This document shows positions 5,111 through 42,358 of a DNA stretch of 64,000 bases, piece after piece. Position 1 is the stretch's first letter, and every line of letters starts with the position of its first letter. Under the pieces are notes generated by a model. The model was not told where the DNA came from and did no database searches. It worked only from the letters and a program-made list of their open reading frames with translations. This stretch comes from an uncultured Bacteroidales bacterium (lineage in GTDB: Bacteria; Bacteroidota; Bacteroidia; Bacteroidales; UBA932), in assembly GCA_900318015.1 (NCBI GenBank), contig ONJB01000002.1, forward strand, positions 33,999 through 97,998, written 5' to 3'. The position numbers and the translations under genes are program-made.

Positions 5111-7789
5111 ATGAGAAAGTGCTGTTTGACGGTAGGTCTGTTTTTATCCCTGGTGGCGGCCCTGGCACAGCCGCAACTGCGGAAAGACAATATCGACGAG
5201 GTCTTGAAGGCCCTGACCCTCGAGGAGAAAGCCTCCCTCCTGGTGGGAACCAGTTCCGACAACCTGGTCCCGGGCCTGGCGGGGGGAACGCGGGCCATCC
5301 CGCGTCTGGGGATTCCCCAGACCGTCTTCTCCGACGGCCCGGCCGGCGTCCGGATCGATCCCTACAGGGATCCCGCCCATACGGTGGCGACAGGGTTCCC
5401 GGTGGGAACGCTCCTGGCCAGTTCGTGGGACATCGACCTGGTGGAGCGTACGACCGCCGTCCTGGGCAACGAGGTCTTGGAATATGGGGTGGACGTGCTG
5501 CTCGCTCCAGGCATGAACATCCACCGGAATCCGCTCAACGGCCGGAACTTCGAGTACTTCTCGGAGGATCCGCTCCTCTCCGGCAAGATAGCGGCGGCCT
5601 ATGTGCGGGGCATCCAGGGCAATGGGACCGGAACCTCCATCAAGCACTATGCGGTGAACAACCAGGAGACGAACCGGACCGAGAATGATGCGCTGGTGAG
5701 CCGACGGGCCCTCCGGGAGATCTATCTGAAGAATTTCGAGATCGCGGTGAAGGAGGGGAAACCCTGGACGGTGATGAGTTCCTACAACAAACTCAATGGG
5801 AAGTACACCCAGCAGGACTACGAACTCCTGACCACCGTCCTCCGGGACGAGTGGGGGTACGACGGCATCGTGATTACGGACTGGGGGCTCAAGGACAACA
5901 CCGCCCTGTCGGTCAAGGCCGGCAACGACCTGATGGATCCGGGTTCCGATGTGGAGATCGAGCGCATCCTCGCGGGGGTCCGGGACGGAAGCATCTCCCT
6001 GGAAGAGATCGACCGCAACGTCCGGTGGATCCTGGAGTACGTCGTGAAGACGCCCCGTTTCCGGAAATATCCCTATTCCAGCCACCCCGACCTGAAAGCC
6101 CATGCCCTTGCGGCGCGGGAAGCGGCGGCCGAGTCCATCGTCCTGCTCCGCAACGAACGGCATGCACTGCCCCTGACGGGTCGTGAAAGAGTGGCTTTGT
6201 ATGGCGTTTCCAGCGAGAATTTCATTGCCGGCGGAACCGGTTCCGGCGATGTGACCAAGCCTTATGTGGTCACCATGACCCAGGCCCTGGAAAACACCGG
6301 ATTCACCCTGGACGAGGGTCTCAAGAAATATTACGCGCTAGAGGCGCAGGCCCTGAAGCACCGCTTCACGATCGAGCCCGTGGAGGATAACGAGTATCGG
6401 GAGGAACCGTTTCTCACCGCCTCGTCCATCGGGTTCCAGGCTTCCCTGAACGATGTGGCCGTGGTGGTCTTCGGACGCCAGGCCGGGGAAGGGAAGGACC
6501 GGCACGTGGAGAACGACTTCGAACTCTCCGCCACGGAGCGGGAACTGCTGGTGAACCTGAACAAGGCCTATCGTCCCCGAGGGAAGCGGGTGGTGGTGGT
6601 CCTCAATGTGGGCGGGGTCGTGGAAACGGCTTCCTGGAAGCATCTGGTGGACGCCATCGTGCTGCCCTGGGCACCAGGCCAGGAAGGCGCCAATGCCATC
6701 GCCGATGTCCTGACGGGGAAGGTGAATCCGTCCGGCAAGCTGCCTATGACTTTCCCGTGCGGCTTCCTGGACATCCCCTCGTCGGCCGATTTCCCGTTCG
6801 ACTACGATCCGCTCTCTCCCTATCACGCGAAGGAAAACGTGGATTTCACCAGCTACTCGGAGGATATCTGGGTGGGCTACCGCTATTTCCAGACGGTGGG
6901 CGCGGAGGTTTCCTATCCCTTCGGCCATGGCCTCAGCTACACCTGTTTCGGCTATTCCAAACCCGTCGTCAAGGCCGGCCCGGACGGGTTCACCGCTTCC
7001 ATCACCGTTACCAATACGGGCGACGTGGCCGGTAAGGAGGTGGTGCAGCTCTATGTGGGCGCCCCGGCCGGCGGCCTGGAGAAACCGGTGTACGAACTCA
7101 AGGGGTTCGGGAAGACCCGGCTCCTCCAACCCGGTGAGAGCCAGGTGATTACTATGAAGGTGGACAACTACTCCCTGGCTTCTTTCAATGAACTTACATC
7201 CGCCTGGGAGGCTGCGGAAGGATCGTATCGGATCCTCTTCGGCGCTTCTTCCGCCGATATCCGCGCCACTGCAGCCTACCAGCTCAAGAAGCCTCTTTCC
7301 TGGCCGGTAAACGATGTGTTCCGGATGCAGCGCGGAGACTATTTCCCGGCCGTGAAGGACGCTGCTCCTGTCGGTCAGGGCCTTCGTTACAGCTACCGGG
7401 AAGGCGAATACATGAATGTGAAAGGCTTTCTCTCCGCACCGGAGAAGACCTCCGGGATCACGACCGTCATCACCTCCGCCCTTAAGGAGCGGAAAGACCA
7501 TTTCTGCCTCATTTTCACGGGCCTCCTCAAAGTGGACCGTGACGGCGTCTATCGGCTTTTCCTCCGCTCCGACGACGGTTCGCGCCTGGTGCTGGACGGC
7601 AAGCCCGTGCTGGACCTGGACTACGACGGCGGCGGATACCAGGAGGTCTGGCTGACCATGGAAGCCGGCTTCCACCGGCTGGAGATCGACTTCTGGGACA
7701 ATTTTGCCGAGGAATATATCGAAGTGGGCCTGAAGGGCCCCGGCATCTCCGCGTACAACCTTCCTGCATCCCTGTTGTTCCATGAATAG
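5111..7789 (+). CDS. GH3 beta-glycosidase with C-terminal PA14-like module
   Basis: An 892-residue secreted enzyme. ATG 5111 is chosen because it gives a proper signal peptide (cleavage near ALAQPQ); an in-frame extension upstream overlaps the GH92 gene and lacks export features. Residues about 25-740 are a complete GH3: (alpha/beta)8 domain with IKHYAVNNQE and the nucleophile Asp257 in GIVITDWGL, the alpha/beta sandwich with acid/base candidates around NDFELSATE, and the fibronectin-III-like domain (YPFGHGLSYT onward). GH3 enzymes remove beta-linked glucose, xylose or related sugars. Residues about 758-892 are a PA14-like domain placed after the FnIII domain; in most PA14-GH3 enzymes it is inserted within the catalytic part, so this position is less usual. 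The next gene overlaps its end by 8 bases, suggesting coupled translation. Confidence 0.93.
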   Translation: MRKCCLTVGLFLSLVAALAQPQLRKDNIDEVLKALTLEEKASLLVGTSSDNLVPGLAGGTRAIPRLGIPQTVFSDGPAGVRIDPYRDPAHTVATGFPVGTLLASSWDIDLVERTTAVLGNEVLEYGVDVLLAPGMNIHRNPLNGRNFEYFSEDPLLSGKIAAAYVRGIQGNGTGTSIKHYAVNNQETNRTENDALVSRRALREIYLKNFEIAVKEGKPWTVMSSYNKLNGKYTQQDYELLTTVLRDEWGYDGIVITDWGLKDNTALSVKAGNDLMDPGSDVEIERILAGVRDGSISLEEIDRNVRWILEYVVKTPRFRKYPYSSHPDLKAHALAAREAAAESIVLLRNERHALPLTGRERVALYGVSSENFIAGGTGSGDVTKPYVVTMTQALENTGFTLDEGLKKYYALEAQALKHRFTIEPVEDNEYREEPFLTASSIGFQASLNDVAVVVFGRQAGEGKDRHVENDFELSATERELLVNLNKAYRPRGKRVVVVLNVGGVVETASWKHLVDAIVLPWAPGQEGANAIADVLTGKVNPSGKLPMTFPCGFLDIPSSADFPFDYDPLSPYHAKENVDFTSYSEDIWVGYRYFQTVGAEVSYPFGHGLSYTCFGYSKPVVKAGPDGFTASITVTNTGDVAGKEVVQLYVGAPAGGLEKPVYELKGFGKTRLLQPGESQVITMKVDNYSLASFNELTSAWEAAEGSYRILFGASSADIRATAAYQLKKPLSWPVNDVFRMQRGDYFPAVKDAAPVGQGLRYSYREGEYMNVKGFLSAPEKTSGITTVITSALKERKDHFCLIFTGLLKVDRDGVYRLFLRSDDGSRLVLDGKPVLDLDYDGGGYQEVWLTMEAGFHRLEIDFWDNFAEEYIEVGLKGPGISAYNLPASLLFHE

Positions 7790-10700
7790 AAGAATCGCCC
7801 TCGTTATCGCCGTGCTGATGGTGCTGGCTTCCTGCGGCCGGTCGAAGTCTGCCTCGGAAAACGCACCCCTGTGGGAACCTCCGAAAGAGGTCCTCGTCGA
7901 AATTGACCGGACCCTGGGCTGTCCCGAGGTGACGGATGCGCCGAATCAGTGGATTGCCTTCCGGAAGGACGTCCGGCTGGACGCCGTTCCGGCATCCGCC
8001 CCGGCGCGGATCGCCGTGGACAGCAAATATTGGCTCTGGGTGAACGGCCGGCTCGTGGTCTTCGAAGGCGGGCTGAAACGCGGGCCCAATCCGCAGGACA
8101 GCTATTTCGATGAGACGGACCTGGCGCCTTATCTCCGGAAGGGAGACAACCAGGTGGCCCTGCTGCTCTGGTACTTCGGCAAGGACGGATTCTCGCACCT
8201 GGGCAGCGGACAGCCGCAGATGTGGTTCGATTCGCCCGATCTCGGGGACGCTCCCTGGATGTGCCGGGTCCATCCCGCCTATGGGACGGCCGTGGACCTT
8301 CCCGCACCCAATTACCGGCTGCCCGAGTCCAGCATCGCCTTCGATGCCCGGAAGGACCTGGGGAACTGGCAGACGGGCCCGCTGGAGGGCTTTGTTCCGG
8401 CGGTTGCCCTGAACAATACGCTGGGCGTCCTGCATTCGCGTCCCATTCCGCAGTGGAAGGACTTTGGAATCCAGGCCGTTGCCTTTGAAACCCGTCCCGG
8501 AGCCGAGGCCGACACCCTGGTCGCCTTGCTTCCGCACAACATGCAGATGACCCCCGTGCTGTCGGTGGAAGACGCGGAAGGCGGGCACCGGATCGTGATT
8601 GAGACCGACCATGCCCGGGTTGGAGAAGAGTGCTTACGCGCGGAGTATGTGACCAAGGCTGGCGAGCAGGAATATGAATCCCTGGGCTGGCTCAGCGGAC
8701 AGCGGATCATCCTGACAGTGGACCATGGCGCCAAGGTGACGGCCCTGAAATACCGGGAAACCGGGTATGATGCCTCGCCGGACGGCACTTTCACCTGCTC
8801 CGACCCATTTTACAACCGCTTCTGGGAAAAGGGTTTGCGGACCATCTATGTCAATGCCCGCGACACTTTCTTCGACTGCCCGGACCGGGAGCGGGGACAG
8901 TGGTGGGGTGACATCGTGACCATCCTCGGGGAGAGTTTCTACACCTATTCCCCGTCCCTGTACTCCCTGATCCGCAAGGGAATCCGCGAACTTTGCGACT
9001 GGCAGCGTCCGGACGACATCCTCTTCTCGCCCATCCCCGGCAATTATGGGGTGGAGCTGCCCTGCCAGATGCTGGCCGCCGTGGGCCGTTACGGCATCTG
9101 GAACTATTACCTGAACACCGGCGACCTGGAGACCGTCCGGCATGCCTATCCGATCGTCAAGAAGTACCTGGCCACCTATCATATCGGCAAGGACGGACTG
9201 GTGGAATGGCACGACGGCGACTGGAACTGGGGGGACTGGGGCGACAACCGGGACATGCGCCTGCTGCAGAACCTGTGGTACGTGCTGGCCTTGCAGTCCG
9301 TCTCCGACATGGCCGATGCGATCGGACTTCAGGGCGAAGGCTCCGGGTACTGGGCGCAGATGCTGGCCTTGTGCGAGGCCATCAACCGTGCTGCCTGGAC
9401 AGGAACCTGCTACCGGCATCCGGAGTATCAGGGGGAAACCGACGACCGGGTGAACGCCCTGGCGGTCCTGGCCGGTCTGGCCGACCGGGACCAGTACGAT
9501 GCGCTCTTCGAGGTCTTCAGGACCCAGGAGCATGCCAGCCCCTACATGGAGAAGTACGTGATGGAAGCGCTCTTTGCCATCGGCCACGGAGATTATGCGC
9601 TGGAGCGGGAACGCAGGAGATACGATTTCATGGTCAATCATCCCGATCACGACACCCTCTTCGAGAACTGGAACGTGGGGGTGGACGGAGACTGGAACTG
9701 CGGCAGTGTGAACCATGCCTGGAGCGGCGGCCCGCTGGCCGTCATCCCGGCCCGGATGCTGGGCATCACGCCCCTGGAGCCCGGCTGGAAGCGTTTTTCC
9801 GTACGGCCGGATGCCGCCGTCTTTGACGAATGCGCCCTCTCGTTCCCCACGGTGGCGGGTACGATTTCTGTCACTTACAGCCGGAGCGGCGACTTCATGG
9901 AAGTGGTCGTGCCGGAAGGAACGCTCGCGGAGCTTTCCCTCCCGGAAACTTATCTTCGCAAGGCCCTCGGGCCGGGCAAGCATCGTCTCCCGCTCACTTT
10001 CAAGCAGGAGAACACCGCCGGCATGAAGTTCCGGGACGCTTCCCTTCCCGTGGAAAAGCGCGTGAAGGACTTGATGGGACGTCTGACCACCGAAGAGAAG
10101 GTGCAGCAGATCACGGCCCAGCTCCTGTATGGGGGCGAGTTCTATGTGAAACGGAATTATCCGGCCGGCCATATCCGGAATGTGGGACATTTCCTCAAGG
10201 GAGCCACGCCCCGGGAAGTGGCCGACGCCATCAACGAGGATACCCGCCGCTCCATGGCGGCCAGCCGCTGGGGGATTCCGGTGCTGCAGCACGGCGAAGC
10301 CCTGCACGGCGCCCAGTGGGGGAGCGCCACCTGCTTCCCGCAGAGCATCGCCATGGGGGCGACGTTCGATGATGACCTCTATTACCGGGTGGGCCAGGTG
10401 GTGGCCGAGGAACTGCGCGCCGTGGGCGTACGGCAGGTCTATGCACCGGTCATCAACATCACGCGGGACCAGCGCTGGGGCCGGGGGCAGGAAAGCTACG
10501 GCGAGGATGTGCTGCTGAATTCCCGGATGGGCGTCGCCTACGTCAAAGCCCTGGAAGAGGGCGGCGTCGTAGCTACACCCAAGCATTTCGTGGACAATTA
10601 CGGGGAAGGCGGGCACGATTCCTTCGCTTCCACGACTTCGTGGAGAGAACTGCGGGAAGTGTACCTGGAGCCCTTCCGCGCTTGCGTCGAGGAAGGTGGA

Positions 10701-12173
10701 GCCCGCGGCATCATGAGCTCCTACAACTCGGTGGACGGTATTCCGGCTTCCTGCAACGGCCTTCTCCTGAATGACATCCTCAAGAAGGAATGGGGCTTCA
10801 AGGGCATTGTGGTTTCCGACTACGACGCGGTGGACATCGTCCGCCGGCAGCACCGGATGGCCGAGACGGAGGACGAAGCCCTGGCGATGTGCCTCAACAA
10901 CGGTCTGGATCTCCAGCTGCACAACACCTCGCTCGGACTCCTCGCCAAAGTGGAGGACGGCAGTATTCCCATGTCCGTCCTGGACGAGGCCGTACGCCGG
11001 GTCCTCACCCTCAAATTCGAACTGGGCCTCTTCGACGAACCCTTCGTCGACGCGGCGAAGGCCGACGAGACCGTCCGTTCCGAAGACCATCGCGAACTCG
11101 CTTATGAGAGTGCCGTCAAGTCCATGACCTTGTTGAAAAACGACGGTATCCTGCCGCTGAAGGGCGTCCGTCGGATTGGCCTGTATGGACCTGCTGCCAA
11201 TACCCTGAATCTGGGCGATTACAGCGGTGGTTACGGAGGCTGGCGGGGCGACGGGGCCATCACGCCTTATGAGGGCCTCCGGCAGGCCTTGGCCGGGCAG
11301 GCCGAGGTGCTGGTCAATCCGGATGCCCGCAGTTGCGACGTGCTCCTTTTCTTCCCTTCCATCCGGGAAGAGGAGGGAGCGGACCGCAGCAGTTTCCGTC
11401 TTCCTTCCGCTAGCATGACCGTGCGCCGGGAAGAGGGGGCGACGATCATCGGCGGACAGCAGGAAATACGCATCAACATCGACCAGGAAAAGATGGTGCG
11501 TGACCTCATCGCGACCGGAAAGCCGGTGGTCGTGGTCCTGCACAACGGCGCGGTCATCGACATTTCCGACTGGGTCGATGGCGCTGCGGCCGTGCTGGAA
11601 GCCTGGTATCCCGGCGAACAGGGCGGCCGGGCCGTCGCCGATGTCCTGACCGGACGCCGGAACCCCGGCGGACGCTTGCCCTTCAGCTGGGTGCGTTCCA
11701 TCGGCCAGAATCCCTACTACTATTCCATCAAGCCCAGCGGGCGCGGCTACGGCTATGTGGAGAACGACGGTTCGCCGCTCTTCCCCTTTGGCTATGGGCT
11801 GAGTTACACGACCTTCGAATACGGCGACCTGCAACTGCCGGAGAAACTGGCGGCCGGAGAGAACCTCCGCGTGAAGGTGACCGTGACAAACACCGGCGCC
11901 GTGGATGGCGACGAGGTTGTCCAGCTGTATGCCCATGACGAACTGGCTTCCGTGGTCCGTCCCATGAAGGAACTGATTGCTTTTAAGCGGGTTACGCTCG
12001 CTCCTGGCGAAAGCCGGGAAGTGGAGCTGGAAGTCCCGTACCGCCGCTTCGCCCTGTGGGATGCCCGCATGGTCCAGCGCGTGGAGGAGGGCTGGTTCGA
12101 AGTATGGCTGGGCCGAAACGCAGCTGAAAAGGTCTCTGGCGGCCGGGTGTACGTCGCGGGTGGATCCATTTAA
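7782..12173 (+). CDS. GH78-GH3 fusion: alpha-L-rhamnosidase joined to a beta-glycosidase
   Basis: A 1463-residue lipoprotein (VLASC lipobox) with two complete catalytic halves in one frame. Residues about 25-740 are GH78: an N-terminal sugar-binding beta-sandwich (WLWVNGRLV), the six-hairpin barrel with the family motif DCPDRERGQWWGD starting at Asp365, and a C-terminal beta domain. Residues about 748-1463 are GH3: KFRDASLP opening, RWGRGQESYGED, KHFVDNYGEGG, nucleophile Asp1013 in GIVVSDYDAVD, and FnIII tail (FPFGYGLSYTTFEY). No stop or frameshift separates the halves, and the GH3 half has no signal peptide of its own, so a true fusion is favoured. GH78 removes alpha-L-rhamnose and GH3 beta-glucose or xylose, so the pair could strip a rhamnosyl-glucose disaccharide in two steps (inference). 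Confidence 0.92.
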   Translation: MNRRIALVIAVLMVLASCGRSKSASENAPLWEPPKEVLVEIDRTLGCPEVTDAPNQWIAFRKDVRLDAVPASAPARIAVDSKYWLWVNGRLVVFEGGLKRGPNPQDSYFDETDLAPYLRKGDNQVALLLWYFGKDGFSHLGSGQPQMWFDSPDLGDAPWMCRVHPAYGTAVDLPAPNYRLPESSIAFDARKDLGNWQTGPLEGFVPAVALNNTLGVLHSRPIPQWKDFGIQAVAFETRPGAEADTLVALLPHNMQMTPVLSVEDAEGGHRIVIETDHARVGEECLRAEYVTKAGEQEYESLGWLSGQRIILTVDHGAKVTALKYRETGYDASPDGTFTCSDPFYNRFWEKGLRTIYVNARDTFFDCPDRERGQWWGDIVTILGESFYTYSPSLYSLIRKGIRELCDWQRPDDILFSPIPGNYGVELPCQMLAAVGRYGIWNYYLNTGDLETVRHAYPIVKKYLATYHIGKDGLVEWHDGDWNWGDWGDNRDMRLLQNLWYVLALQSVSDMADAIGLQGEGSGYWAQMLALCEAINRAAWTGTCYRHPEYQGETDDRVNALAVLAGLADRDQYDALFEVFRTQEHASPYMEKYVMEALFAIGHGDYALERERRRYDFMVNHPDHDTLFENWNVGVDGDWNCGSVNHAWSGGPLAVIPARMLGITPLEPGWKRFSVRPDAAVFDECALSFPTVAGTISVTYSRSGDFMEVVVPEGTLAELSLPETYLRKALGPGKHRLPLTFKQENTAGMKFRDASLPVEKRVKDLMGRLTTEEKVQQITAQLLYGGEFYVKRNYPAGHIRNVGHFLKGATPREVADAINEDTRRSMAASRWGIPVLQHGEALHGAQWGSATCFPQSIAMGATFDDDLYYRVGQVVAEELRAVGVRQVYAPVINITRDQRWGRGQESYGEDVLLNSRMGVAYVKALEEGGVVATPKHFVDNYGEGGHDSFASTTSWRELREVYLEPFRACVEEGGARGIMSSYNSVDGIPASCNGLLLNDILKKEWGFKGIVVSDYDAVDIVRRQHRMAETEDEALAMCLNNGLDLQLHNTSLGLLAKVEDGSIPMSVLDEAVRRVLTLKFELGLFDEPFVDAAKADETVRSEDHRELAYESAVKSMTLLKNDGILPLKGVRRIGLYGPAANTLNLGDYSGGYGGWRGDGAITPYEGLRQALAGQAEVLVNPDARSCDVLLFFPSIREEEGADRSSFRLPSASMTVRREEGATIIGGQQEIRINIDQEKMVRDLIATGKPVVVVLHNGAVIDISDWVDGAAAVLEAWYPGEQGGRAVADVLTGRRNPGGRLPFSWVRSIGQNPYYYSIKPSGRGYGYVENDGSPLFPFGYGLSYTTFEYGDLQLPEKLAAGENLRVKVTVTNTGAVDGDEVVQLYAHDELASVVRPMKELIAFKRVTLAPGESREVELEVPYRRFALWDARMVQRVEEGWFEVWLGRNAAEKVSGGRVYVAGGSI

Positions 12174-12183
12174 GTCGATGCGC

Positions 12184-15100
12184 ATGAGAAGGATTGTTTC
12201 CGCAACCTGGGCAGGCTTTCTCGGATTGATGCTCCTGAGCGCCTGCAACAACCATTGGAAGGCCCTGGAAGAGGGTTTCCAGACCCCGCCGGACTCGATC
12301 CGGATGGCCGTATACTGGTATTGGCTGGACAACCATATCTCCAAGGAGGGCGTCGTGAAAGACCTGGAGGCGATGAAGCTCGTGGGCATCACGCGGGCCT
12401 TCATCGGCAACCAGTCCGAAGGCGACGCCGACGGTCCCGTACCGCTGTTTTCCGACGAGTGGTGGGATATCACCCATACGGCGATGAAGAAGGCCGGGGA
12501 GCTGGGCATCGAGATCGGGATGTTCAACTGCCCGGGCTGGAGCCAGTCCGGAGGTCCGTGGGTCACCCCGGAACAGAGCATGAAGTATGTGGAAGGGCAT
12601 TTCCAGGAGGTGACGGGAAACGGGAGCGAACAGTTGCTGGAGCTTCCGGAAGTGACTCCGGACCGGATCATCGCGGTCCAGGCCTGGATGTCGGTGAAGG
12701 GAGATTCCCGGACCTGGACCCTCCAGACCCGCAAAGGTGTCCCGGCGGTCCTGAAGATGCCGGTTCCGTTCACCGTCCGTTCGCTGGTCCTGCAAAGTGA
12801 CGGCGAACAATGGACCCCGGCCCGGCTCTCCCTGGACGGGAAGGAGGTGGCCGCATTCACTTATGACCGCCACAACCTGGGCTTGAACGTGGGATTCAAA
12901 CCCCTGGCACCCTGGGTCGAAAACCTGGTCGAGACCCCGGCGGGCACCTATGAGCTGCATCTGGACGATCCTTCCGACGGCACGTTCACCGTCACTCTCT
13001 CCGAGGTGGCCTACATGCCCCGCTATGCGGAGAAAACCCTCGCCAAGATGTTCCAGGAACCGCTTCCCTTCTGGAATACCTATCTGTGGGACACGCCGCA
13101 GTATGTCAATTTCCGTTACTGCGTGGACGATTACACCCTGCAGGACCTGACCGGACTGGTGAAGGACGGGCAGCTCCGCTGGAAAGTGCCGGACGGGAAG
13201 TGGACGGTCCTTGTGAGCTACATGCAGTCGACCGGCGTCACCAACTCTCCCGCCGTGCCGGAAGGAACGGGCCTGGAAGTGGACAAGATGAGCCGGAAGT
13301 ACATCGCGCAGCATTACGACGCCTTCGTAGGCGAGCTTCTTCGCCGCATCCCGGCTGCGGGCCGCAAGACCTGGAAGGTGGTGGTGGAAGACAGCTACGA
13401 GACCGGCGGCCAGAACTGGACGGACGACATGATGCAAGCCTTCAAGGATGCATACGGCTATGATCCTTTTCCGTATCTTCCTGTGCTTCAGGGTCTTGTC
13501 GTGAATACGATGGACGAGAGCGAGCGTTTCCTCTGGGACCTCCGCCGTCTGGTGGCCGACCGCGTCGCCTATGACTATGTGGGCGGCCTTCGGGAAAAGG
13601 CGAATGCCGACGGCCTCGAGACCTGGCTGGAATGCTACGGACACTGGGGATTCCCCAGCGAGTTCCTTCTGTACGGCAGCCAGAGCGACCAGATCGCCGG
13701 CGAATACTGGAGCGAAGGCACCCTCGGCGACATTGAGAACCGGGCGGCGTCCTCCTGCGGCCACATCTACGGCAAGAACCGGATCTGGGCGGAATCCTGC
13801 ACGGCCGGGGGGCCGCCGTTCAACCGCTACCCGCGCCAGATGAAGCAGCGGGTGGACCGTTTCTTCTGCGAAGGCATCAACGCGAACCTCCTGCACCTGT
13901 ACATCCAGCAGCCCGATGACCGCCAGCCAGGCCGGGATGCCTGGTTCGGGAACGAGTTCAACCGGAACAACACCTGGTTCGATGGGATGGGCCCGTTCAT
14001 CGAGTACCTCCGCCGCTGTAACTTCCTCCTGCAGCAAGGCCGGTATGTCGCCGACGTGGCCTATTTCATCGGCGAGGACGCCCCCAAGATGACCGGCGTG
14101 ACCGACCCGCCGCTTCCCGCAGGCTACAGTTTCGACTATGTCAATGCCGATGTCCTCCGGCACCACGCTCGTGTCCGGGACGGGAAACTCGTGCTGGACA
14201 GCGGCATGGAATACCGGGTCCTGGTGCTTCCGAAGCAGGAGACCATGCGCCCGGAAGTGCTGGAGACCATTGCCGGCTTCGTGCAGGAAGGGCTGTCCAT
14301 CGTAGGGGACGCCCCGAAACGTTCGCCCAGCATGCAGCATGGGATCTTCGAGGCCGACCAGCGGGTAAAGGAGCTGGCGGAGCGTACCTGGAACGGATCC
14401 GGAAAGGGCCTTTGCTATCCGGCAGGAACCCCGCTGGACCAGGTGCTCGAGGACATGGGCACCCAACCGGATTTTACTTACCGGGGAGAAGGAAAAATCC
14501 TGTTCATCCATCGCACCCTGGGAGCCGACGGCGAAGTCTATTTCGTCAGCAACCAGGAAGATGCGCCGGTGCAGGTCGAGCCCGCTTTCCGGGTGAACCC
14601 GTCCTTCGGAGCCGAGATCTGGGATCCCGTGACGGGGACTGTCACGGGCTGGGACGGCGCCGAATTGGCCCTGGACCGCCTGCAAAGCGTGTTCATTATC
14701 TTCCGGAAGGATGCCCGGACGGCAGATTCTTCCAGTCATGCCGACCGCGGCAAAGCCTCTTTGGACAGCCCTTGGACCGTGGATTTCGCGGCCTCGGCCG
14801 GGAATCCTGCTTTCAGCCGCACGTTCGAGAAACTGACCGACTGGACGGCCAGCGGCGACGAGGCGGTCAAGTACTATTCCGGCAAGGCCGTGTACAAGAA
14901 TACCTTCACGCTGGAAACCGCGAAGGGCTCCCGCATCGTCCTCGATCTCGGGGACGTGATGGTCCTCGCGTCGGTCCGGGTGAACGGGAAAGACGCCGGC
15001 GGCGTCTGGACCTTCCCGTACCGCCTGGACATCTCCGACCTGGTGAAATCCGGGGAGAACACCCTGGAAATCACCGTGTACAACAACTGGCGCAACCGCC

Positions 15101-15225
15101 TGATCGCGGATGAGAAGCTCCCGGAAGGGGAGCGCAAGACCTGGACGAACAACCAGCCCTATGAATCCGGGGACGACCTCCAGTCCTCCGGCCTGCTGGG
15201 CCCTGTAAGCATCCGCCTATTATGA
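12184..15225 (+). CDS. GH106 alpha-L-rhamnosidase lipoprotein
   Basis: A 1013-residue lipoprotein (LMLLSAC lipobox). The ATG at 12184 is preferred; an ATG at 12178 would add two residues, and the frame further upstream lies inside the previous gene. The N-terminus has the GH106 signature (FQTPPDS, VYWYWLDN, ISKEGVVKDLEAMK, then an FNCPGWSQSGGPW region). The catalytic TIM barrel continues to about residue 750, followed by beta-sandwich domains; the last about 130 residues resemble the GH2-type sugar-binding fold (GKAVYKNTFTL, RVNGKDAGGVW). Length fits the family (about 1000-1100). GH106 is an inverting, Ca2+-dependent alpha-L-rhamnosidase family, best known for acting on rhamnogalacturonan side chains. 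It lies 10 bases after the GH78-GH3 gene and overlaps the next gene by ATGA. Confidence 0.9.
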   Translation: MRRIVSATWAGFLGLMLLSACNNHWKALEEGFQTPPDSIRMAVYWYWLDNHISKEGVVKDLEAMKLVGITRAFIGNQSEGDADGPVPLFSDEWWDITHTAMKKAGELGIEIGMFNCPGWSQSGGPWVTPEQSMKYVEGHFQEVTGNGSEQLLELPEVTPDRIIAVQAWMSVKGDSRTWTLQTRKGVPAVLKMPVPFTVRSLVLQSDGEQWTPARLSLDGKEVAAFTYDRHNLGLNVGFKPLAPWVENLVETPAGTYELHLDDPSDGTFTVTLSEVAYMPRYAEKTLAKMFQEPLPFWNTYLWDTPQYVNFRYCVDDYTLQDLTGLVKDGQLRWKVPDGKWTVLVSYMQSTGVTNSPAVPEGTGLEVDKMSRKYIAQHYDAFVGELLRRIPAAGRKTWKVVVEDSYETGGQNWTDDMMQAFKDAYGYDPFPYLPVLQGLVVNTMDESERFLWDLRRLVADRVAYDYVGGLREKANADGLETWLECYGHWGFPSEFLLYGSQSDQIAGEYWSEGTLGDIENRAASSCGHIYGKNRIWAESCTAGGPPFNRYPRQMKQRVDRFFCEGINANLLHLYIQQPDDRQPGRDAWFGNEFNRNNTWFDGMGPFIEYLRRCNFLLQQGRYVADVAYFIGEDAPKMTGVTDPPLPAGYSFDYVNADVLRHHARVRDGKLVLDSGMEYRVLVLPKQETMRPEVLETIAGFVQEGLSIVGDAPKRSPSMQHGIFEADQRVKELAERTWNGSGKGLCYPAGTPLDQVLEDMGTQPDFTYRGEGKILFIHRTLGADGEVYFVSNQEDAPVQVEPAFRVNPSFGAEIWDPVTGTVTGWDGAELALDRLQSVFIIFRKDARTADSSSHADRGKASLDSPWTVDFAASAGNPAFSRTFEKLTDWTASGDEAVKYYSGKAVYKNTFTLETAKGSRIVLDLGDVMVLASVRVNGKDAGGVWTFPYRLDISDLVKSGENTLEITVYNNWRNRLIADEKLPEGERKTWTNNQPYESGDDLQSSGLLGPVSIRLL

Positions 15226-18200
15226 AAAGCATCTTCCCGGTCTTCCGACAGGTTTTCGCGCTGCTTGTGGCGTTGACGGTCCTCTCCTGTGACAGGGCCG
15301 CGGAAACCTGGCGGGTAAGCGAACTGGCGTTCACGGCTTCCCGGAGTTACGATGCCGGGGGCGGAGACCGGGTCCGGATGGACGTCTGCTTTGCAAGCAG
15401 GGGGTCGGGCCGGACGCTGACGATTCCCGCCTTCTGGGACGGTGGAAACCGGTTCGTGGTCCGTTTCGCCCTGCCGGAATCCGGCCGCTGGACCTGGAAG
15501 AGCATCTGCCCGGACGACCCGGCCCTGGATGGCCTGAAGGGGAGTCTCCGCTGTCGGAAATATACGGGAGACCTGGCCATCTACCGGCATGGCTTCATCG
15601 AGGCCCGGAAAGGGACGAAATACCTCATATATGCCGATGGAACGCCCTTTTTCTACCTGGGCGACACCCATTGGGGCATGTACACGGAGGAACTGTCCGA
15701 CGACCATTTCAAGCGCATTGTCCGGCGCCGGGTGGAACAAGGCTTCACCGTGATCCAGAGCGAACCGATCGGCGCCCCCTTCCACCTGCAGGACGGTCGC
15801 GTGGATGCGGAAGACATCGCCGAATTTCGAAAGGCCGACGCTTATTACCAGTTTATCGCCGATGCTGGTCTGGTACACGCGAATGCGGCGTTCTTCTTCC
15901 CTTCGGACCTGTCCGAGGAACTGGCTGCAGATGATGAGGCCCTGAAGGCCCTGGCGCGCTATTGGGTGGCCCGCTTCGGGGCCTATCCGGTGCTCTGGAC
16001 CCTTGCCCAGGAAATCGACAATGACTTCTATGCCGAGCTCGGCGGCCGCTTCTACGACTACCGCAATAACCCTTGGGTGAAGATTGCGGAGTATATCCAT
16101 GCGGCGGATCCTTATTCCCATCCGCTGTCCGGCCATCAGGAAAATGCCGTGAACACCAGCGTCACCGGTGCCGGAACGGAACCGGAAGAATCCCATGCCG
16201 ATGGGAATGGCATCTCGGTCTTCCTGCCTGAAGCGGTATCCGAGCGGACCGGCCACAACTGGTGGGCCGCTCAGTGGTCTCCGCCCCTGCATGAGACGCC
16301 GGGTCCGGAGGCCGTCCGGGATTATTGGCAGTCCGACCGCCCTGCCGTGAACTACGAAGGACGGTATTGCGGCCTGTGGACGATGGATTTCGGCTCCCGG
16401 GCGCAGGGGTGGATCTCCTTCCTGTCCGGATTCTGCGGCTACGGCTACGGCGCCGCCGACATCTGGTATTACCACGGAGGCTTTGATGCGGACACCACCT
16501 CTTTCGACGGAGTGGAGTACATCACCCCGGAAATGAAGGCAACCCCCTGGCAGGAAGCGTTGGAGTATCCCAGCGCCTTGCAGATGAGGCATTTAAGGAG
16601 CCTTCTGGAATCCTTCGACTGGTGGAACCTGATGCCCGTCATTCCTGGCAATCCCGTTTTCCGGGATGCCTCCGGGGCCGCGGTCTATGCCCGTACGAAC
16701 CGGGTGCATTTGCTCTATTTCTATGGGAAGGGGACGAAGACCGGCCGCATATCCACCTTGATTCCCGGAGCAGGGATGGACACCCAATGGTATAATCCCC
16801 GCACTGGCGACTTCCTGGAGGCGGCTCTGCCCGTTCGGGAGAAAGATGGCTATTGGGCCTTACCCGCCAAGCCGGACGAGGAGGATTGGGTACTGGTCAT
16901 CCGGCTGCCGGAAAGGGTGTCCCGTTCGACTGCAGCGTCGCCGAAACCGGCCTTGGACTGCGTCGATCCCTTCATCGGCACGGGCGGCGACGGCCATACC
17001 TATCCCGGGGCCACGGCGCCCTTCGGCCTGGTCCAACTGAGTCCGGATACGCACAATTCGGGTTGGGAGGCCGCCTCCGGCTATCGGGACAAGGACACGA
17101 CGCTGATCGGTTTCTCCCATACGCACTTGAGTGGAACCGGCGGCGTGGACCTGGGCGATTTCCTCTTTACGCCTTTCCAGAAGCCGGTTCCGTTCTCCAA
17201 GAAGAATGAGACGGCCTCTCCCGGCTATTACCGGATCCAGGTGCAGGATCTCACGGTGGAACTGACGGCCTTGCCCCGAACCGGCTGCCAGCGCTATACC
17301 TTCCGGGGGAAAGGGGAACGGAAACTGTGGGTAGACCTGCGCTATAACATCGGCGATACCCATCCGGACCGGATCAGTTTCCGGCAGGTCTCCAACCTGG
17401 AAATCGAAGGCGGACGGCATGTGGCCGGATGGGCTCCGGACCGCTGGATGTTCTTCTCGGCGGCATTCTCCGTTCCTTTCCTTTCCTGTGAACCCGACGG
17501 GGAAGACCGCTATCTATTGACTTTCCCGGCCGAAACGAAGGAACTGACCATCGTCGTGGGCCTGTCCCCGACGGATGCGGAGGCGGCCTGCCGCAACCGG
17601 CTGGCGGAAGCGCCCGCCTGCGATTTCGACAGGATCCTGGAAACCTCCAAGGCACTCTGGGAAACGCAGTTCGGGAAAGCTGTCGTCGAGGGCGGCACGC
17701 CCGCGCAGCGGACCAATTTCCATACGGCCCTGTATCACACGCTCATCGCGCCCAATCTCCTCAGCGACGTCGGGGAGCGTCCTTTCTATTCCACCCTTTC
17801 CCTCTGGGATACCTACCGGACCTGGAATCCGCTCATGATCCTGCTGAATCCGGAAATGGAAGGGGATATGGCCTACAGCCTCGTCCGCACCTTCGAGCGC
17901 GACGGCAAACTGCCGCTCTGGGCTCTGGGCGGGGTGGACGTGGACTGTATGATCGGCTACCATAGCGTCTCTGTCATGGCCGATGCGTGGCTGCGGGGCA
18001 TCCGCACGTTTGACGGGGAAAAGGCCCTGCAGGCGATGGTGCGCTCCTCGAACCTGGACCCGGCCTCGGACTGGTACAATGCCTACGGCTATGTACCGTC
18101 GGATTTCACCCCCGAGTCGGTGTCCAAGACGCTGGAGTTCTGCTATGACGACTGGTGCATCGCCCGAATGGCGGAATCCCTGGGGCATCCGGACATCGCT

Positions 18201-19664
18201 GCGGAATATGATGCCCGGGCGCTGCGGTACAGGAACCTCCTGGACCCTTCCACAGGCTTTTTCCGCGGGAAGGAATCGGACGGAAACTGGCGTACGCCCT
18301 TCGATCCGGCGGGCTCCTCCCGGGATTATACGGAAGCCATCGCCTGGCAGTATCGCCATTATGTCCCGCATGACATGCGGGGCTATACGGACCTGATGGG
18401 CGGTCCTGACGCGGTCCTCGCTTCCCTGGATTCTCTCTTCGCCGACGAAAACCGGCCGGAAACGGTCCATGACGGCAACATCACCGGGCTCATGGGCCTC
18501 TATGCCCATGGGAACGAACCCAGTCACGGAACGGCCTGGCTCTATGCCTGCCTGGGCGCGCCTTCCGAGTCGCAGCGCCTGGTCAGACGGATCCTGGAGG
18601 AACTCTATCAGCCGGCGCCTGACGGCTTATGCGGCAACGAGGACTGCGGCCAGCTGAGCGCCTGGTACGTGCTTTCCGCCTTGGGCTTGTATCCGATCTG
18701 TCCCGGAAGCGGGGAATTCCTCCTGGGGGCGCCGCTTTTCCGGAAAGCGACGGTGACGCTCCCGAACGGACGCAAGCTGGTCATCGTGGCCGACCATCCG
18801 GAGCGTCCTTATGTGAAGGATGTCCGATGGAATGGAAAGTCCGTTGACAGACAGTTCATTACTTACGATGAACTGATGCAGGGTGGTGAACTGTCCTACC
18901 GGCTTTCCCGGAAACCCTGCGCGGACCGGGATGGCTTGCCGGCACCCTATTCCCTGACGAAGGAAACCCTGGTCTCGACACCGTATTTGACGGATGACCC
19001 CCGCTTCTTCGACGAAACCTTTACGGCGGAGCTCCTGAGCCGTACACCGGGCGCCCGGATCCACTATACCCTGGACGGGTCCGAGCCCACGGAAGCATCG
19101 GCCCGCTATGAAGGCCCGTTCTCCATTACGGAGGCCTGCATCCTGCAAGCGCGGGCTTTCAAGACTGGGTGCGCTCCGAGTCCGCTCCTGCATTCCCATG
19201 CCTTTCCGATCGAGTACCTCCCGGCCGTGACCACCGGCGAGTTACAACCGGGTTGCCGCTACACCTACCATCGGGGCGCGTTCCTGCGGACGGCGCAGGT
19301 GGTCGCATCCCCTGTCGTAGACCGCGGCGTTCTCCCGGCGCCTTCCATCCAGGGCGCTTCTGACGAGGACCATTTCGGCTTTGTCTTTACGGGCTATCTG
19401 GATGTCCCGGAAGCGGGACTCTGGGAGTTCGCGGTCACGAGCGACGACGGCGCCGTCCTGGAAATAGACGGCCGTCTGGCCGTGAACGGCGACGGCTCCC
19501 ATGCCAATTATACGGCCACCGGCCATATCGCTCTCCGGAAGGGAATGCACTCCTTCCGGCTCCTGTACCTGGAAGACTATGAGGGACAGAACCTCGAATG
19601 GGCCTGGAAACGCCCGTCTTCCGACACCTTCGAACCTATTCCTGAAACAGCTATATACCATTGA
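15222..19664 (+). CDS. GH140-GH92 fusion with chitobiase-like and PA14 modules
   Basis: A 1480-residue probable lipoprotein (VLSC lipobox) starting in the ATGA overlap with GH106. Residues about 25-115 are a DUF5060-like beta-sandwich. Residues about 120-570 resemble DUF4038/GH140, the family of apiosidases (DGTPFFYLGDTHW, GFTVIQSEPIG, TLAQEIDNDFY). Residues about 577-1265 are a complete GH92 (CVDPFIGTGGDGHTYPGAT, FSHTHLSGTGG, HGNEP at 1097-1100 region). A CHB_HEX-like domain (YTLDGSEPTEA) and a PA14-like module (SDDGAVLEIDG) complete the chain, in the same order as the protein at 2251. The gene probably arose by joining a GH140 gene to a copy of a 2251-type gene. Predicted activities are apiosidase-like and alpha-mannosidase-like; that these two sugars occur together in one substrate is unexpected, so either half may have an altered specificity. 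Confidence 0.88.
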   Translation: MKSIFPVFRQVFALLVALTVLSCDRAAETWRVSELAFTASRSYDAGGGDRVRMDVCFASRGSGRTLTIPAFWDGGNRFVVRFALPESGRWTWKSICPDDPALDGLKGSLRCRKYTGDLAIYRHGFIEARKGTKYLIYADGTPFFYLGDTHWGMYTEELSDDHFKRIVRRRVEQGFTVIQSEPIGAPFHLQDGRVDAEDIAEFRKADAYYQFIADAGLVHANAAFFFPSDLSEELAADDEALKALARYWVARFGAYPVLWTLAQEIDNDFYAELGGRFYDYRNNPWVKIAEYIHAADPYSHPLSGHQENAVNTSVTGAGTEPEESHADGNGISVFLPEAVSERTGHNWWAAQWSPPLHETPGPEAVRDYWQSDRPAVNYEGRYCGLWTMDFGSRAQGWISFLSGFCGYGYGAADIWYYHGGFDADTTSFDGVEYITPEMKATPWQEALEYPSALQMRHLRSLLESFDWWNLMPVIPGNPVFRDASGAAVYARTNRVHLLYFYGKGTKTGRISTLIPGAGMDTQWYNPRTGDFLEAALPVREKDGYWALPAKPDEEDWVLVIRLPERVSRSTAASPKPALDCVDPFIGTGGDGHTYPGATAPFGLVQLSPDTHNSGWEAASGYRDKDTTLIGFSHTHLSGTGGVDLGDFLFTPFQKPVPFSKKNETASPGYYRIQVQDLTVELTALPRTGCQRYTFRGKGERKLWVDLRYNIGDTHPDRISFRQVSNLEIEGGRHVAGWAPDRWMFFSAAFSVPFLSCEPDGEDRYLLTFPAETKELTIVVGLSPTDAEAACRNRLAEAPACDFDRILETSKALWETQFGKAVVEGGTPAQRTNFHTALYHTLIAPNLLSDVGERPFYSTLSLWDTYRTWNPLMILLNPEMEGDMAYSLVRTFERDGKLPLWALGGVDVDCMIGYHSVSVMADAWLRGIRTFDGEKALQAMVRSSNLDPASDWYNAYGYVPSDFTPESVSKTLEFCYDDWCIARMAESLGHPDIAAEYDARALRYRNLLDPSTGFFRGKESDGNWRTPFDPAGSSRDYTEAIAWQYRHYVPHDMRGYTDLMGGPDAVLASLDSLFADENRPETVHDGNITGLMGLYAHGNEPSHGTAWLYACLGAPSESQRLVRRILEELYQPAPDGLCGNEDCGQLSAWYVLSALGLYPICPGSGEFLLGAPLFRKATVTLPNGRKLVIVADHPERPYVKDVRWNGKSVDRQFITYDELMQGGELSYRLSRKPCADRDGLPAPYSLTKETLVSTPYLTDDPRFFDETFTAELLSRTPGARIHYTLDGSEPTEASARYEGPFSITEACILQARAFKTGCAPSPLLHSHAFPIEYLPAVTTGELQPGCRYTYHRGAFLRTAQVVASPVVDRGVLPAPSIQGASDEDHFGFVFTGYLDVPEAGLWEFAVTSDDGAVLEIDGRLAVNGDGSHANYTATGHIALRKGMHSFRLLYLEDYEGQNLEWAWKRPSSDTFEPIPETAIYH

Positions 19665-23113: not shown

Positions 23114-25141
23114 ATGAAAAGACTTTTGATTGTTGCGGCCCTCGCCGTCTCGCTGTTCAACGCAACCGCCCAGTCCTATGACGTGGCGGCTTACCTGTAT
23201 CCGGCCTATGCGGCCAATGACGTACGCCTGCGGCCCTTCTGGCCCATGGGCCTGGGCGAGTGGGAGACGGTGCTCACGATGCAGCAGCGGAATCCCGGCC
23301 ACGCCTGGGACCGTCATCCGCTCTGGGGCTACATCAACGAGGCCGATCCGGCCGTGATGGAGATGGAAATCGACCAGGCCACCAGCCACGGGGTGAACGT
23401 GTTCATCTTCGACTGGTACTGGCTGGACGGCCGCCCCTGGATGGAAACGACCCTTACGGAAGGCTTCCTGAAGGCCCGCAACCGGGACAAGATGAAGTTC
23501 TACCTGATGTGGGCGAACCACAACGTCGGCAACGACTGGGATACCCGTATCTCCGGACATCAGGAGGGGAACATCATCTATCGCGGGGGAGTGAACCGGC
23601 AGGAGTTCGAGAAGATCTGCAAACGGAACATCGAACTGTTCTTCAAGCAGCCCAACTACTACAAGATCGACGGCAAGCCGGTGTTCATGATTTATGAGGT
23701 GAACACGTTCATCGAAGGGATTGGCGGCGTCGAGGCGGCCCGGGACGCCCTGGCCTGGTTCCGGCAGGAGGTGAAGGACGCCGGGTTCCCGGACCTGGAG
23801 CTCCAGTTCACGATGTGGGACAGCCAGTTCAACTACAGCGGCGTGGACGAGGCCAAGGTCCAGGCCGGCCGGCCCCGGGAGGATTTCATCCGGAACCTCG
23901 GGTTCAACAGCATGTCCCACTACCAGTTCTGCCACTATATCTGGATGGATGACGACTACCAGACCATCCTGGACCGCGCCTACGAGGAATGGGACAAGCT
24001 CGACGCCGAGTTCACCATCCCGTATTATCCGCACGTGTCCATCGGCTGGGACAACAGCCCCCGTTTCGGCGAGAGCGCCGTGGTGAAGGACAATACGCCC
24101 GAGCGCTTCGAGGGGGCGCTCCGCAAGGCCAAGGAATGGGTGGACGCCCGTCCCGGCCTGCACCCGCTCATCACCATCAATTCCTGGAACGAATGGACCG
24201 AAACCAGCTATCTGCAGCCGGATGACGTCTATGGCTACGGCTACTTGGATGCCGTCAAGAACGTGTTCGGGCCGGTGTCCCATCTCCCCAAGGCGGCGAA
24301 CAAGGCCGATGCCGTCGCTGCCGCGCTCAAGGATCCCCATTCGCAGTACATGGTCGTGGTGTCGCACCGGGGCGACTGGCGCAACTATCCGGAGAACTCC
24401 CTCCCGGCCATCGAATCCATCATCCGGATGGGGGTGGACATGATGGAACTGGACCTGAAGAAGACCAAGGACGGGGTGCTGGTGCTGATGCACGACGGCA
24501 CGCTGGACCGCACGACGACGGGACGCGGGAAGGTATCGGACTATACCTACGAGGAACTGCTGAAGTTCAACTTGAAGCGGGGCCACGGCATCGACATCCC
24601 GGGCCTCAAGATCCCCACCCTGCGCCAGGCCCTGGAAGTTTGCAAGGACCGCATCACGGTCAATGTGGACCAGGGATACGAGTACTACGACGAGGTCCTG
24701 GCCATCGCCGAAGAACTGGGCGTGACGGACCAGATCCTCATCAAGGGCGGCTATCCCTGGCCGGATGTGAAGAAGAAACTGGGCCAGCACAAGCACAACC
24801 TGATGTACATGCCGGTCGTGGGCAATGTCCAGGACGGGGAGTCGGAACAGTTCAAGAGTTACGTCTCGGCCAAGCAGCTGCAGATGGCTTATGAACTGTG
24901 CTTCAATGAATTGAATGACCAGGTCCGGAGCGCTGCCAAGCAGGTCCTGGAATCTGGCTCCAAGGTATGGGTGAATACGATCTGGGGTTCCCTCTGCGGA
25001 GAGTACGACGATGACAAGGCGTTCGAAGCCGCCGATCCGGATACCGTCTACGGGCCCATCCTGGACCTCGGCACCTCCATCATCCAGACCGACCGTCCAG
25101 AATTCCTGATCCGCTATCTTGAACAGAAAGGCCGCAGATAA
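23114..25141 (+). CDS. WbsX/GH99-like domain fused to a glycerophosphodiester phosphodiesterase
   Basis: A 675-residue exported protein (signal peptide ending ATAQ). Residues about 20-390 resemble the WbsX/GH99-like TIM barrel: YPAYAAND, FDWYWLDGRPW, MWANHN, and SWNEWTET near the end, as in endo-alpha-mannosidase-like proteins. Residues about 410-675 are a GDPD-type TIM barrel: VSHRGDWRNYPENS, ELDLKKTKDGVLVLMHDGTLDRTT and INVNVDQ-like strand residues, with the general-acid/base histidines and metal-binding Glu/Asp present. GDPDs split glycerophosphodiesters into an alcohol and glycerol-3-phosphate. Joining these domains suggests an enzyme that handles a glycan bearing a phosphodiester substituent, for example glycerophosphate (inference). 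The gene sits in the long 688-28168 unit. Confidence 0.83.
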   Translation: MKRLLIVAALAVSLFNATAQSYDVAAYLYPAYAANDVRLRPFWPMGLGEWETVLTMQQRNPGHAWDRHPLWGYINEADPAVMEMEIDQATSHGVNVFIFDWYWLDGRPWMETTLTEGFLKARNRDKMKFYLMWANHNVGNDWDTRISGHQEGNIIYRGGVNRQEFEKICKRNIELFFKQPNYYKIDGKPVFMIYEVNTFIEGIGGVEAARDALAWFRQEVKDAGFPDLELQFTMWDSQFNYSGVDEAKVQAGRPREDFIRNLGFNSMSHYQFCHYIWMDDDYQTILDRAYEEWDKLDAEFTIPYYPHVSIGWDNSPRFGESAVVKDNTPERFEGALRKAKEWVDARPGLHPLITINSWNEWTETSYLQPDDVYGYGYLDAVKNVFGPVSHLPKAANKADAVAAALKDPHSQYMVVVSHRGDWRNYPENSLPAIESIIRMGVDMMELDLKKTKDGVLVLMHDGTLDRTTTGRGKVSDYTYEELLKFNLKRGHGIDIPGLKIPTLRQALEVCKDRITVNVDQGYEYYDEVLAIAEELGVTDQILIKGGYPWPDVKKKLGQHKHNLMYMPVVGNVQDGESEQFKSYVSAKQLQMAYELCFNELNDQVRSAAKQVLESGSKVWVNTIWGSLCGEYDDDKAFEAADPDTVYGPILDLGTSIIQTDRPEFLIRYLEQKGRR

Positions 25142-32124: not shown

Positions 32125-33429
32125 ATGGCAGATTCCAGAAGATCATTCCTCAAGAAAGCAGGCGCCGGCATCGCCGGATTCACCCTGCTTCCCCGGCACG
32201 TTTTCGGTGCCATGGGCGGAGACAAACGGTTCGTGGCCCCCAGCGACCAGCTTACACGGGGCATCATCGGCGTCGGAGGCATCGGCATGTCCTCGCTCCA
32301 TTTCGCCAGTGACGAGAAGTGCCGGCTCGTGGCGGTTTGCGACGTCGACAAGAACCACCTTGACCACGCGGTCGAAGCCGGCAAGAGCCGGTTCGATACG
32401 ACGCTTGCCGCCTACTCCGACTGGCGGGACCTCGTGCACGACCCGAACGTGGACATCGTCCACATCGCGACGCCGTCCCACTGGCACGCGATCCAGGCCG
32501 TTGAGGCGGCCCGCGCTGGCAAGGACATCTTCTGCGAGAAACCCATGACCCGTACCATCGGCGAGGGACAGAAGGTGGTCGAGGCGGTCGCCCGGTACGG
32601 CCGGATCTTCCGGCTGGACACCTGGTTCCGCTTCAAGGACACCTTCTACGGCCTCGGCACCACCGTCGAGCCCCTGAAGAAACTGGTGGACAGCGGCCTG
32701 CTCGGCTGGCCCCTGACGGTGCGCATCTCGGGCGCCACCGGTTTCACCTGGAAGTTCTTCTGGACCGGCCGGGAGAACCTGGTCCCGCAGCCCGTCCCCA
32801 AGGAGCTGGATTACGACATGTGGCTCGGCCCCGCGCCTTTCAAGCCGTACCATCCCCACCGGGTGCACCAGACCTTCCGCGGCTACTGGGACTACGAGTC
32901 CGGCGGCCTCGGTGACATGGGCCAGCACTACATCGACCCTGTCCAGTACATCCTCGGAAAGGACGATACCTTCCCGGTGAAGGTCGAGGTCGATGCGCCC
33001 CAGCAGCATCCCGACGCCGTGGGCATCTGGCGGAGCATCACCTACACCTATGCCGACGGCTGCCGGATCATCCTCGAGGGCGAGGGCTTCGAAAGCCAGG
33101 GAAAGGTTCCCTATATCGAGGGCCCGAAGGGAAAGGTCTATAAGGGCTTCGAATGCACGATCCCGAACGTATGGGACGTCATCAACGCCTTGCCTGACCC
33201 GGCGCCCCGGCACACGGACTTCCTCGAGTGCGTGCGCAACCGGCAGCACTTCGCCCTGGACGAGATCATCGGCCACCACAGCGCCACGGTCGTGAACATG
33301 GGCGCCTGCGCGCTCCGGCTCGGCCGTACCCTGCATTTCGATCCGGCCACCCAGCGCTTCATCGGCGATGACGCGGCCAATCTCCTGGTCCATCAACCCA
33401 TGCGTGCCCCCTGGGCGTCTATGATCTAG
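32125..33429 (+). CDS. Gfo/Idh/MocA-family oxidoreductase with Tat signal
   Basis: A 434-residue NAD(P)-dependent sugar oxidoreductase. The N-terminus SRRSFLKKAGAGIAGF is a good twin-arginine signal, implying export in the folded form with bound nucleotide. The Rossmann domain shows GIIGVGGIGMSSL, VCDVDKNHLDHA, HIATPSHWHA and the family's EKP (FCEKPMTR). The C-terminal beta-sheet domain has GDMGQHYIDPVQY with the substrate-binding His. In this family, exported members can oxidise sugar hydroxyls with a tightly bound nucleotide, for instance to 3-keto-glycosides. The HEAT-DUF1080 gene, 4 bases downstream, supports that role because DUF1080 proteins cleave 3-keto-glycosides. Specificity is inferred from this context only. 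Confidence 0.88.
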   Translation: MADSRRSFLKKAGAGIAGFTLLPRHVFGAMGGDKRFVAPSDQLTRGIIGVGGIGMSSLHFASDEKCRLVAVCDVDKNHLDHAVEAGKSRFDTTLAAYSDWRDLVHDPNVDIVHIATPSHWHAIQAVEAARAGKDIFCEKPMTRTIGEGQKVVEAVARYGRIFRLDTWFRFKDTFYGLGTTVEPLKKLVDSGLLGWPLTVRISGATGFTWKFFWTGRENLVPQPVPKELDYDMWLGPAPFKPYHPHRVHQTFRGYWDYESGGLGDMGQHYIDPVQYILGKDDTFPVKVEVDAPQQHPDAVGIWRSITYTYADGCRIILEGEGFESQGKVPYIEGPKGKVYKGFECTIPNVWDVINALPDPAPRHTDFLECVRNRQHFALDEIIGHHSATVVNMGACALRLGRTLHFDPATQRFIGDDAANLLVHQPMRAPWASMI

Positions 33430-33433
33430 GCCT

Positions 33434-36151: not shown

Positions 36152-36156
36152 CCGCC

Positions 36157-38820: not shown

Positions 38821-42354
<3,534 letters not shown>

Positions 42355-42358
42355 TCTC

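Follow-up and report, generated by a model that had tools for sequence, protein, structure and literature searches.

Does a single gene in this bacterium encode two complete glycosidases and, if so, what could their union be for? The window analysed here is a stretch of 64,000 nucleotides of contig ONJB01000002.1, from an uncultured Bacteroidales bacterium. At 7782-12173, on the forward strand (+), it carries an open reading frame (ORF) of 1463 amino acids that starts at an ATG, has zero internal stops in translation, and matches both glycoside hydrolase families GH78 and GH3. The original prediction had described this gene as a fusion of two complete enzymes behind one lipoprotein signal, and had proposed that it could be a natural naringinase, i.e. 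a rhamnosidase coupled to a beta-glucosidase. Our analysis confirmed that the GH78-GH3 fusion is real, neither a chance frame nor an assembly error, while the comparisons made for the GH3 half argue for another activity pair.

The domain sets of both enzymes are complete within the one frame, as had been claimed. In the GH78 half, Pfam matched the six-hairpin catalytic domain at residues 335-653 (8784-9740; PF17389, Bac_rhamnosid6H, E 1.1e-30) and the GH78 C-terminal domain at residues 661-728 (9762-9965; PF17390, Bac_rhamnosid_C). The GH3 half is a complete module, matched by the N-terminal domain at residues 807-1077 (10200-11012; PF00933, Glyco_hydro_3, E 2.5e-62), the C-terminal domain at residues 1115-1342 (11124-11807; PF01915, Glyco_hydro_3_C), and the Fn3-like domain at residues 1378-1446 (11913-12119; PF14310). 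The junction of the halves (residues 729-750; 9966-10031) is about 20 residues long and of near-constant length, with no long linker. These features, like the catalytic residues given below, are all on the + strand. The opposite strand carries a long frame (8634-12860) that overlaps the fusion gene.

To what extent the join recurs elsewhere is shown by a genome contig scan, which gave 312 stretches encoding a relative; the best 80 of the 312 were kept and correspond to 76 distinct loci. One ORF covers both halves in 29 of these 76 loci, which derive from 27 public genome records (by accession prefix) classed as Bacteroidales or Bacteroidia. With the window protein they form an alignment of 30 fused rows, 26 complete and four (L037, L041, L042, and L043) cut by a contig end. 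Over residues 325-1463, twenty of the fused relatives were aligned with the window protein and share 68-91% identity with it. The junction aligns in all 30 rows with gaps of at most one residue, and just past it P756 is present in 30/30 rows and V757 in 29/30. Since all rows align across the junction, an assembly error at 10000-10025 can in practice be discounted; the frame is kept there in the window and in the 29 other loci, interrupted neither by a stop, as had been predicted, nor by a frameshift. A Met at position 748 occurs in 6/30 rows only, so the GH3 half has no conserved start of its own at that point. The single lipoprotein signal also stands. Read from the translation, the signal peptide (7782-7835) has the lipobox LASC with Cys18 (codon 7833-7835), which the motif predicts to be lipidated, and this position is Cys in 29/30 fused rows, the remaining row being truncated at its N-terminus.

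All the named hosts of the fused relatives are ruminants (cattle, yak, goat, water buffalo, roe deer, and water deer), while the remaining records name no host or state "rumen" only. The bacterium that carries the window has relatives from the guts of ruminants.

Both halves are under purifying selection. The ratio of nonsynonymous to synonymous substitutions (dN/dS, Nei-Gojobori) was computed for the 94 of 325 pairs, not independent of each other, with 0.1<dS<1.5 in both halves: the median was 0.154 for the GH78 half (maximum 0.221) and 0.137 for the GH3 half (maximum 0.195). The pairwise identities of the two halves are correlated (r = 0.88, a value reached by 0/2000 permutations), as expected for parts inherited together.

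The GH78 half is predicted to be a RhaB-like alpha-L-rhamnosidase. Indeed, a profile of 11 GH78 parts found RhaB in the PDB at E 7.8e-53, and eight of its nine PDB matches are rhamnosidases or proteins with a rhamnosidase domain, the ninth being a glucosylceramidase. PF17389 and PF17390 were matched by 11/11 GH78 parts; weaker Pfam matches among them were DUF608 (in four), Glyco_hydro_2_N (in three), and MGH1-like (in three). In the phmmer alignment to RhaB (PDB 2okx), along which correspondences were counted by hand, D365, E370, D377, and E628 pair with RhaB D567, E572, D579, and E841, and the four residues are invariant in the 30 fused rows. Three of them lie in the GH78 motif DCPDRERGQWWGD (residues 365-377; 8874-8912), whose start at Asp365 is in this way upheld. 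We take the RhaB residues to be an acid/base pair with supporting Asp, so that E370 (8889-8891) is the candidate general acid and E628 (9663-9665) the candidate general base.

In the GH3 half, Asp1013 (10818-10820) had been named as the nucleophile, in agreement with our results: it is present in 29/29 rows that reach it, and pairs with the Asp of the beta-xylosidase 7zb3, and with an Asn in 8c7f. The candidate acid/base is E1198 (11373-11375), in EEEGADR, conserved in 27/27 rows that reach it; we presume this role from the motif E-G-x-D-R. The sugar specificity could be reflected by E839 (10296-10298), a Glu where aligned beta-glucosidases have Asp, found in 30/30 fused rows and in 18/18 close GH3-only ORFs, the latter including a fragment of a fused gene broken by a frameshift. 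In direct alignments, this column is Glu in the beta-xylosidase 7zb3/8c7f and in EmGH1 (5z87), and Asp in CcBgl3B (8xrt) and the beta-glucosidase 5m6g. Through GH3 paralogs of the same genome, it is Glu in the xylan beta-xylosidase 7vc6/7vc7 (via L009) and Asp in the beta-glucosidase 9urf and JMB19063 (3u48; via L003). The paralogs L003-L006 have Asp at this column; Glu is not rare, as L002, L007, L009, L011/L015 (one gene), and L012 carry it. No rule for an Asp or Glu at this position in GH3 was found in the available portion of PMC6887791.

The best solved relatives of the GH3 half are the beta-xylosidase 7zb3 (the top match) and EmGH1 (5z87). No NCBIfam model claims it, because the top model, beta-xylosidase/alpha-L-arabinosidase, scores 515 bits, well under its cut-off of 1050; the next one, a BglX-type beta-glucosidase, scores 440 bits. 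Taken as sequence evidence, this suggests that the GH3 half is a retaining glycosidase more likely to act as a beta-D-xylosidase or alpha-L-arabinosidase than as a beta-glucosidase. The beta-glucosidase assignment of the original prediction is therefore disfavoured, both by E839, which the aligned beta-xylosidases share, and by the top PDB relative.

The history of the two modules includes a clear loss and a likely exchange. In the GH78 tree, for the rows listed (part of the tree only), the fused rows fall mostly in two adjoining groups (11/14 and 18/19 rows) with modest support, and GH78-only rows are placed both between and beside them; in the GH3 tree, the fused rows are more dispersed among GH3-only rows. 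The label changes between fused and unfused number five in the GH78 tree (at least three forced by well supported branches) and six in the GH3 tree (at least four forced), counts that are inflated because two rows are mislabelled: L044 as "GH78-only", though its frame continues to the contig end, and L031_1170 as "GH3-only", though it comes from a fused copy broken by a frameshift. Locus L031 (2-7921) holds a tandem pair of fused genes, the first apparently frameshifted, be it real or a sequencing error. A candidate unfused pair next to the fused gene of this locus was rejected, as its two ORFs look like a frameshift-broken second fused copy.

Compared with L021 by BLAST, the GH78 gene of L047 (8839-11280) has an in-frame deletion of 2070 nt, at whose joint the two BLAST segments overlap by 10 nt, and keeps about the first 22 and the last 20 residues of the GH3 half. 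L050 (8992-13431) is a likely case of GH3 module swap, to judge from its identities: with L032/L040 it shares about 90% identity in the GH78 half and only about 78% in the GH3 half, while the latter is 86-87% identical to stand-alone GH3 genes that adjoin fused genes in other genomes (L028, L029, and L043). The modules can thus be exchanged and in some cases lost, so any claim that their coupling is obligate calls for caution. GH78-only and GH3-only genes can occur together, as on contig CACZKE010000008 (L067 and L052) and in locus L057.

The distribution of the fusion was assessed in samples of genomes under strict cut-offs, and in each genome only a few top candidates were scored; rarer or more distant fusions could therefore escape. 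In the genus sample, 45/200 genomes match at E<=1e-150, and 12/200 genomes, the window's own included, have full-length fused frames, at 13 loci in total; two further fused frames (G332 and G287) are cut by contig ends. Two of the 13 loci (G269:C127 and G297) were flagged with one TGA, taken as the terminal stop because the match extends two residues beyond the usual end. In the family sample, the fusion is found in 2/149 genomes, both of the window's genus. At the order level, one of 393 genomes matched at E<=1e-250 (the window's own), and at the phylum level five of 395 did so at E<=1e-180, in four cases with the GH78 part alone. At those cut-offs, no fusion was seen outside the genus in the family (149), order (393), and phylum (395) samples. 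Among the genomes of these four samples, the fusion is so far seen in one genus.

Around the fusion gene, Pfam domain matches outline a glycan-degradation locus, all on the same strand (119-48858, +). Directly upstream of the window, in L099 and on the same strand, are a SusC-type gene (7494-10619; TonB plug and CarboxypepD_reg) and a SusD-type gene (10626-12296; SusD_RagB). The locus begins with the end of a GH27 gene, a PA14 gene whose metalloenzyme match is below threshold, GH92-PA14, GH3-PA14, and the fusion. The latter is followed by GH106, apiosidase-GH92, GH127, DUF2490, a metallo-beta-lactamase-fold gene, WbsX-GDPD, and two GH43 genes; then come a small matchless ORF, a phosphodiesterase, a GH78, and a 3-keto-disaccharide hydrolase domain flanked by two GFO/IDH/MocA genes, and at the end a metallophosphoesterase, GH2, GH78, GH27, and GH78. 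Besides the fusion, therefore, the locus has three further GH78 genes. Related fused loci carry differing combinations of GH127, GH106, GH27, GH43, WbsX, and GH3-PA14 genes; L024 and L028 carry GH95 and GH43, and L016 has a GH28/glucuronyl-esterase-type gene, which points to pectin.

As judged from its gene families, the locus is rich in putative rhamnosidases, arabinosidases, and galactosidases, and fits plant glycans bearing rhamnose, arabinose, and galactose. Domains that bear on rhamnogalacturonan II (RG-II) are present (GH106, GH78, apiosidase-like, and GH127); GH3 and GH92 are not known as families of RG-II loci. Given the 3-keto-type genes, small plant glycosides may also be substrates. 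As regards location, surface export of lipoproteins is signalled by acidic residues directly following the lipid-bearing Cys. Such a signal was looked for after Cys18 of the window protein and is absent: the sequence that follows is GRSKSASENA, whose first seven residues include no acidic one. A periplasmic enzyme is thus expected.

Other features of the window deserve a mention. A second two-enzyme fusion of the locus (15222-19664; 1480 aa) has DUF5060, apiosidase-like, and GH92 domains with PA14; its matches are long in L039 (14591-19195, 1535 aa) and L052 (1036-6186, 1717 aa), and shorter in L058 (1344-4151, 936 aa). The gene at 23114-25141 (675 aa) encodes WbsX followed by a GDPD phosphodiesterase domain, and a WbsX match of about 400 aa occurs in many related loci. 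At 32125-37494, the two GFO/IDH/MocA oxidoreductases flank a HEAT/3-keto-disaccharide hydrolase protein, an arrangement resembling glycoside 3-oxidation genes. The short GH78-type protein at 42269-44068 (599 aa) has a counterpart of at least 500 bits in 14/76 related loci. At 48876-50539, RelA/SpoT synthetase-type and HD hydrolase domains are split over two adjacent ORFs, and the ORFs at 58063-60084 and 60435-61457 (673 and 340 aa) have zero Pfam matches at E<=0.001.

We consider it fairly probable that the protein is a natural bifunctional exo-glycosidase, in which a GH78 rhamnosidase and a Glu839-type GH3 pentosidase act as one periplasmic lipoprotein of a SusC/SusD-led locus. The SusC/SusD pair would import plant oligosaccharides bearing rhamnose and pentose, and the fusion protein, exported as a lipoprotein that probably faces the periplasm, would trim them. 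An alpha-L-rhamnosidase would be tied by the short, near-constant junction to a Glu839-type GH3 retaining glycosidase, so that a single anchored molecule could carry out both cleavages. What the sequences show is the architecture, its conservation, selection on both halves, and the locus; both activities, the sugar specificity, the location, the substrate, and any benefit of tethering are here what we infer from them. A more specific form, a dedicated rhamnosyl-pentosidase whose two arranged sites strip a rhamnose cap and then the adjoining beta-xylose or alpha-L-arabinose from a plant glycan or saponin, is a speculative possibility; we know of no single protein with this pair of activities.

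Several observations weigh against the bifunctional pentosidase reading. L047 is a clear loss of nearly all the GH3 half with the GH78 half kept, and L066 and L067 also are without a GH3 half. In the co-occurrence count (matches at E<=1e-150, two best candidates per genome, "close" set at >=60%, and genomes with a fused gene excluded), close GH78-only genes were found in the genus genomes G180, G150, G299, and G308, and close GH3-only genes in G180, G166, G339, and G330; both unfused halves are together only in G180 among the genomes scored, a weak co-occurrence. The GH78 half is far in sequence from solved enzymes, and E839 is no absolute marker, because EmGH1 has Glu too. Finally, L041, L021, and L025 have acidic residues closer to the Cys, so the cellular location may vary among relatives.

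These same losses and exchanges invite another explanation, namely that each enzyme works on its own, on separate branches or separate oligosaccharides, and that the fusion serves only to supply both in equal amounts behind a single export signal, their substrates being uncoupled. The clean loss of GH3 in L047, the seemingly exchangeable GH3 module of L050, the existence of GH78-only and GH3-only relatives, and the presence of another two-enzyme fusion in the locus all speak for it, while the near-constant junction length in 30/30 rows speaks against it, though it is compatible with this explanation too; we hold it to be unlikely. Somewhat more unlikely, in our view, is the natural naringinase, in which the GH78 half would take the rhamnose of flavonoid or saponin rhamnosyl-glucosides and the GH3 half the exposed beta-glucose, in coupled steps. 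Many beta-glucosidases do belong to GH3, and GFO/IDH/MocA genes with a 3-keto-disaccharide hydrolase domain, as in the window, are of a type linked to small glycosides. There is also a precedent in one cluster whose separate GH2, GH3, and GH78 enzymes deglycosylate solanine and chaconine, according to PMC10653915 and PMC9597252. Against this stand E839, which matches the beta-xylosidases in the alignments made, the beta-xylosidase as top PDB match, and a neighbourhood in which a SusC/SusD pair accompanies many arabinosidases and galactosidases and which fits plant glycans rich in rhamnose, arabinose, and galactose at least as well as flavonoid diglycosides.

An artefact of assembly or annotation, or a dead module in one half, is barely credible. 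The relatives are largely metagenome assemblies and the fused copy of L031 is broken by a frameshift, but the fusion recurs in 29 other loci in 27 genome records that keep frame and junction, which largely rules out the artefact, and the invariant catalytic residues together with dN/dS far under 1 speak against a dead module in either half.

Fused carbohydrate-active enzymes (CAZymes) reveal which cleavage steps nature couples, here rhamnose removal and a GH3 step. The value of tethering is directly testable, because natural controls exist in the GH3 deletion of L047, the likely swap of L050, and the GH78-only and GH3-only relatives. If it works, the enzyme could trim plant glycosides bearing rhamnose and pentose.

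As for known systems, RhaB (2okx) shares with the window protein the GH78 catalytic domain and the four aligned acidic residues, but it has no GH3 part, is of low identity, and in its 956-aa chain has more sequence N-terminal to the catalytic domain. Similarly, the beta-xylosidase 7zb3 shares with the GH3 half the Glu at 839 and the Tyr after the nucleophile; it differs in being without a GH78 part, and the specificity of the window protein is a prediction. Among the literature matches listed, no GH78-GH3 fusion was found by name, title, or abstract opening, in line with the statement that no characterised one was known; Supplementary Data 5 of PMC9177762, described there as a list of multidomain CAZymes of rumen genomes, may already include this architecture. 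In glycoalkaloid degradation, the solanine/chaconine cluster is like the fusion in that GH3 and GH78 cooperate on rhamnose-bearing glycosides, and unlike it in that they are separate proteins of other bacteria with a GH3 called beta-glucosidase (PMC9597252 and PMC10653915). The nearest parallel in architecture comes from a rumen-derived genome of Bacteroidales UBA2817, in which, according to PMC8810776, a GH173 member is appended to a GH78 module. As in the window protein, a second exo-glycosidase is attached to GH78 in a member of the Bacteroidales, although the partner there is GH173, a beta-galactosidase family, with CBM67 and without GH3. This kind of fusion, GH78 joined to another exo-glycosidase, is therefore already known, and it is the pairing of GH78 with GH3 that appears undescribed in the literature searched.

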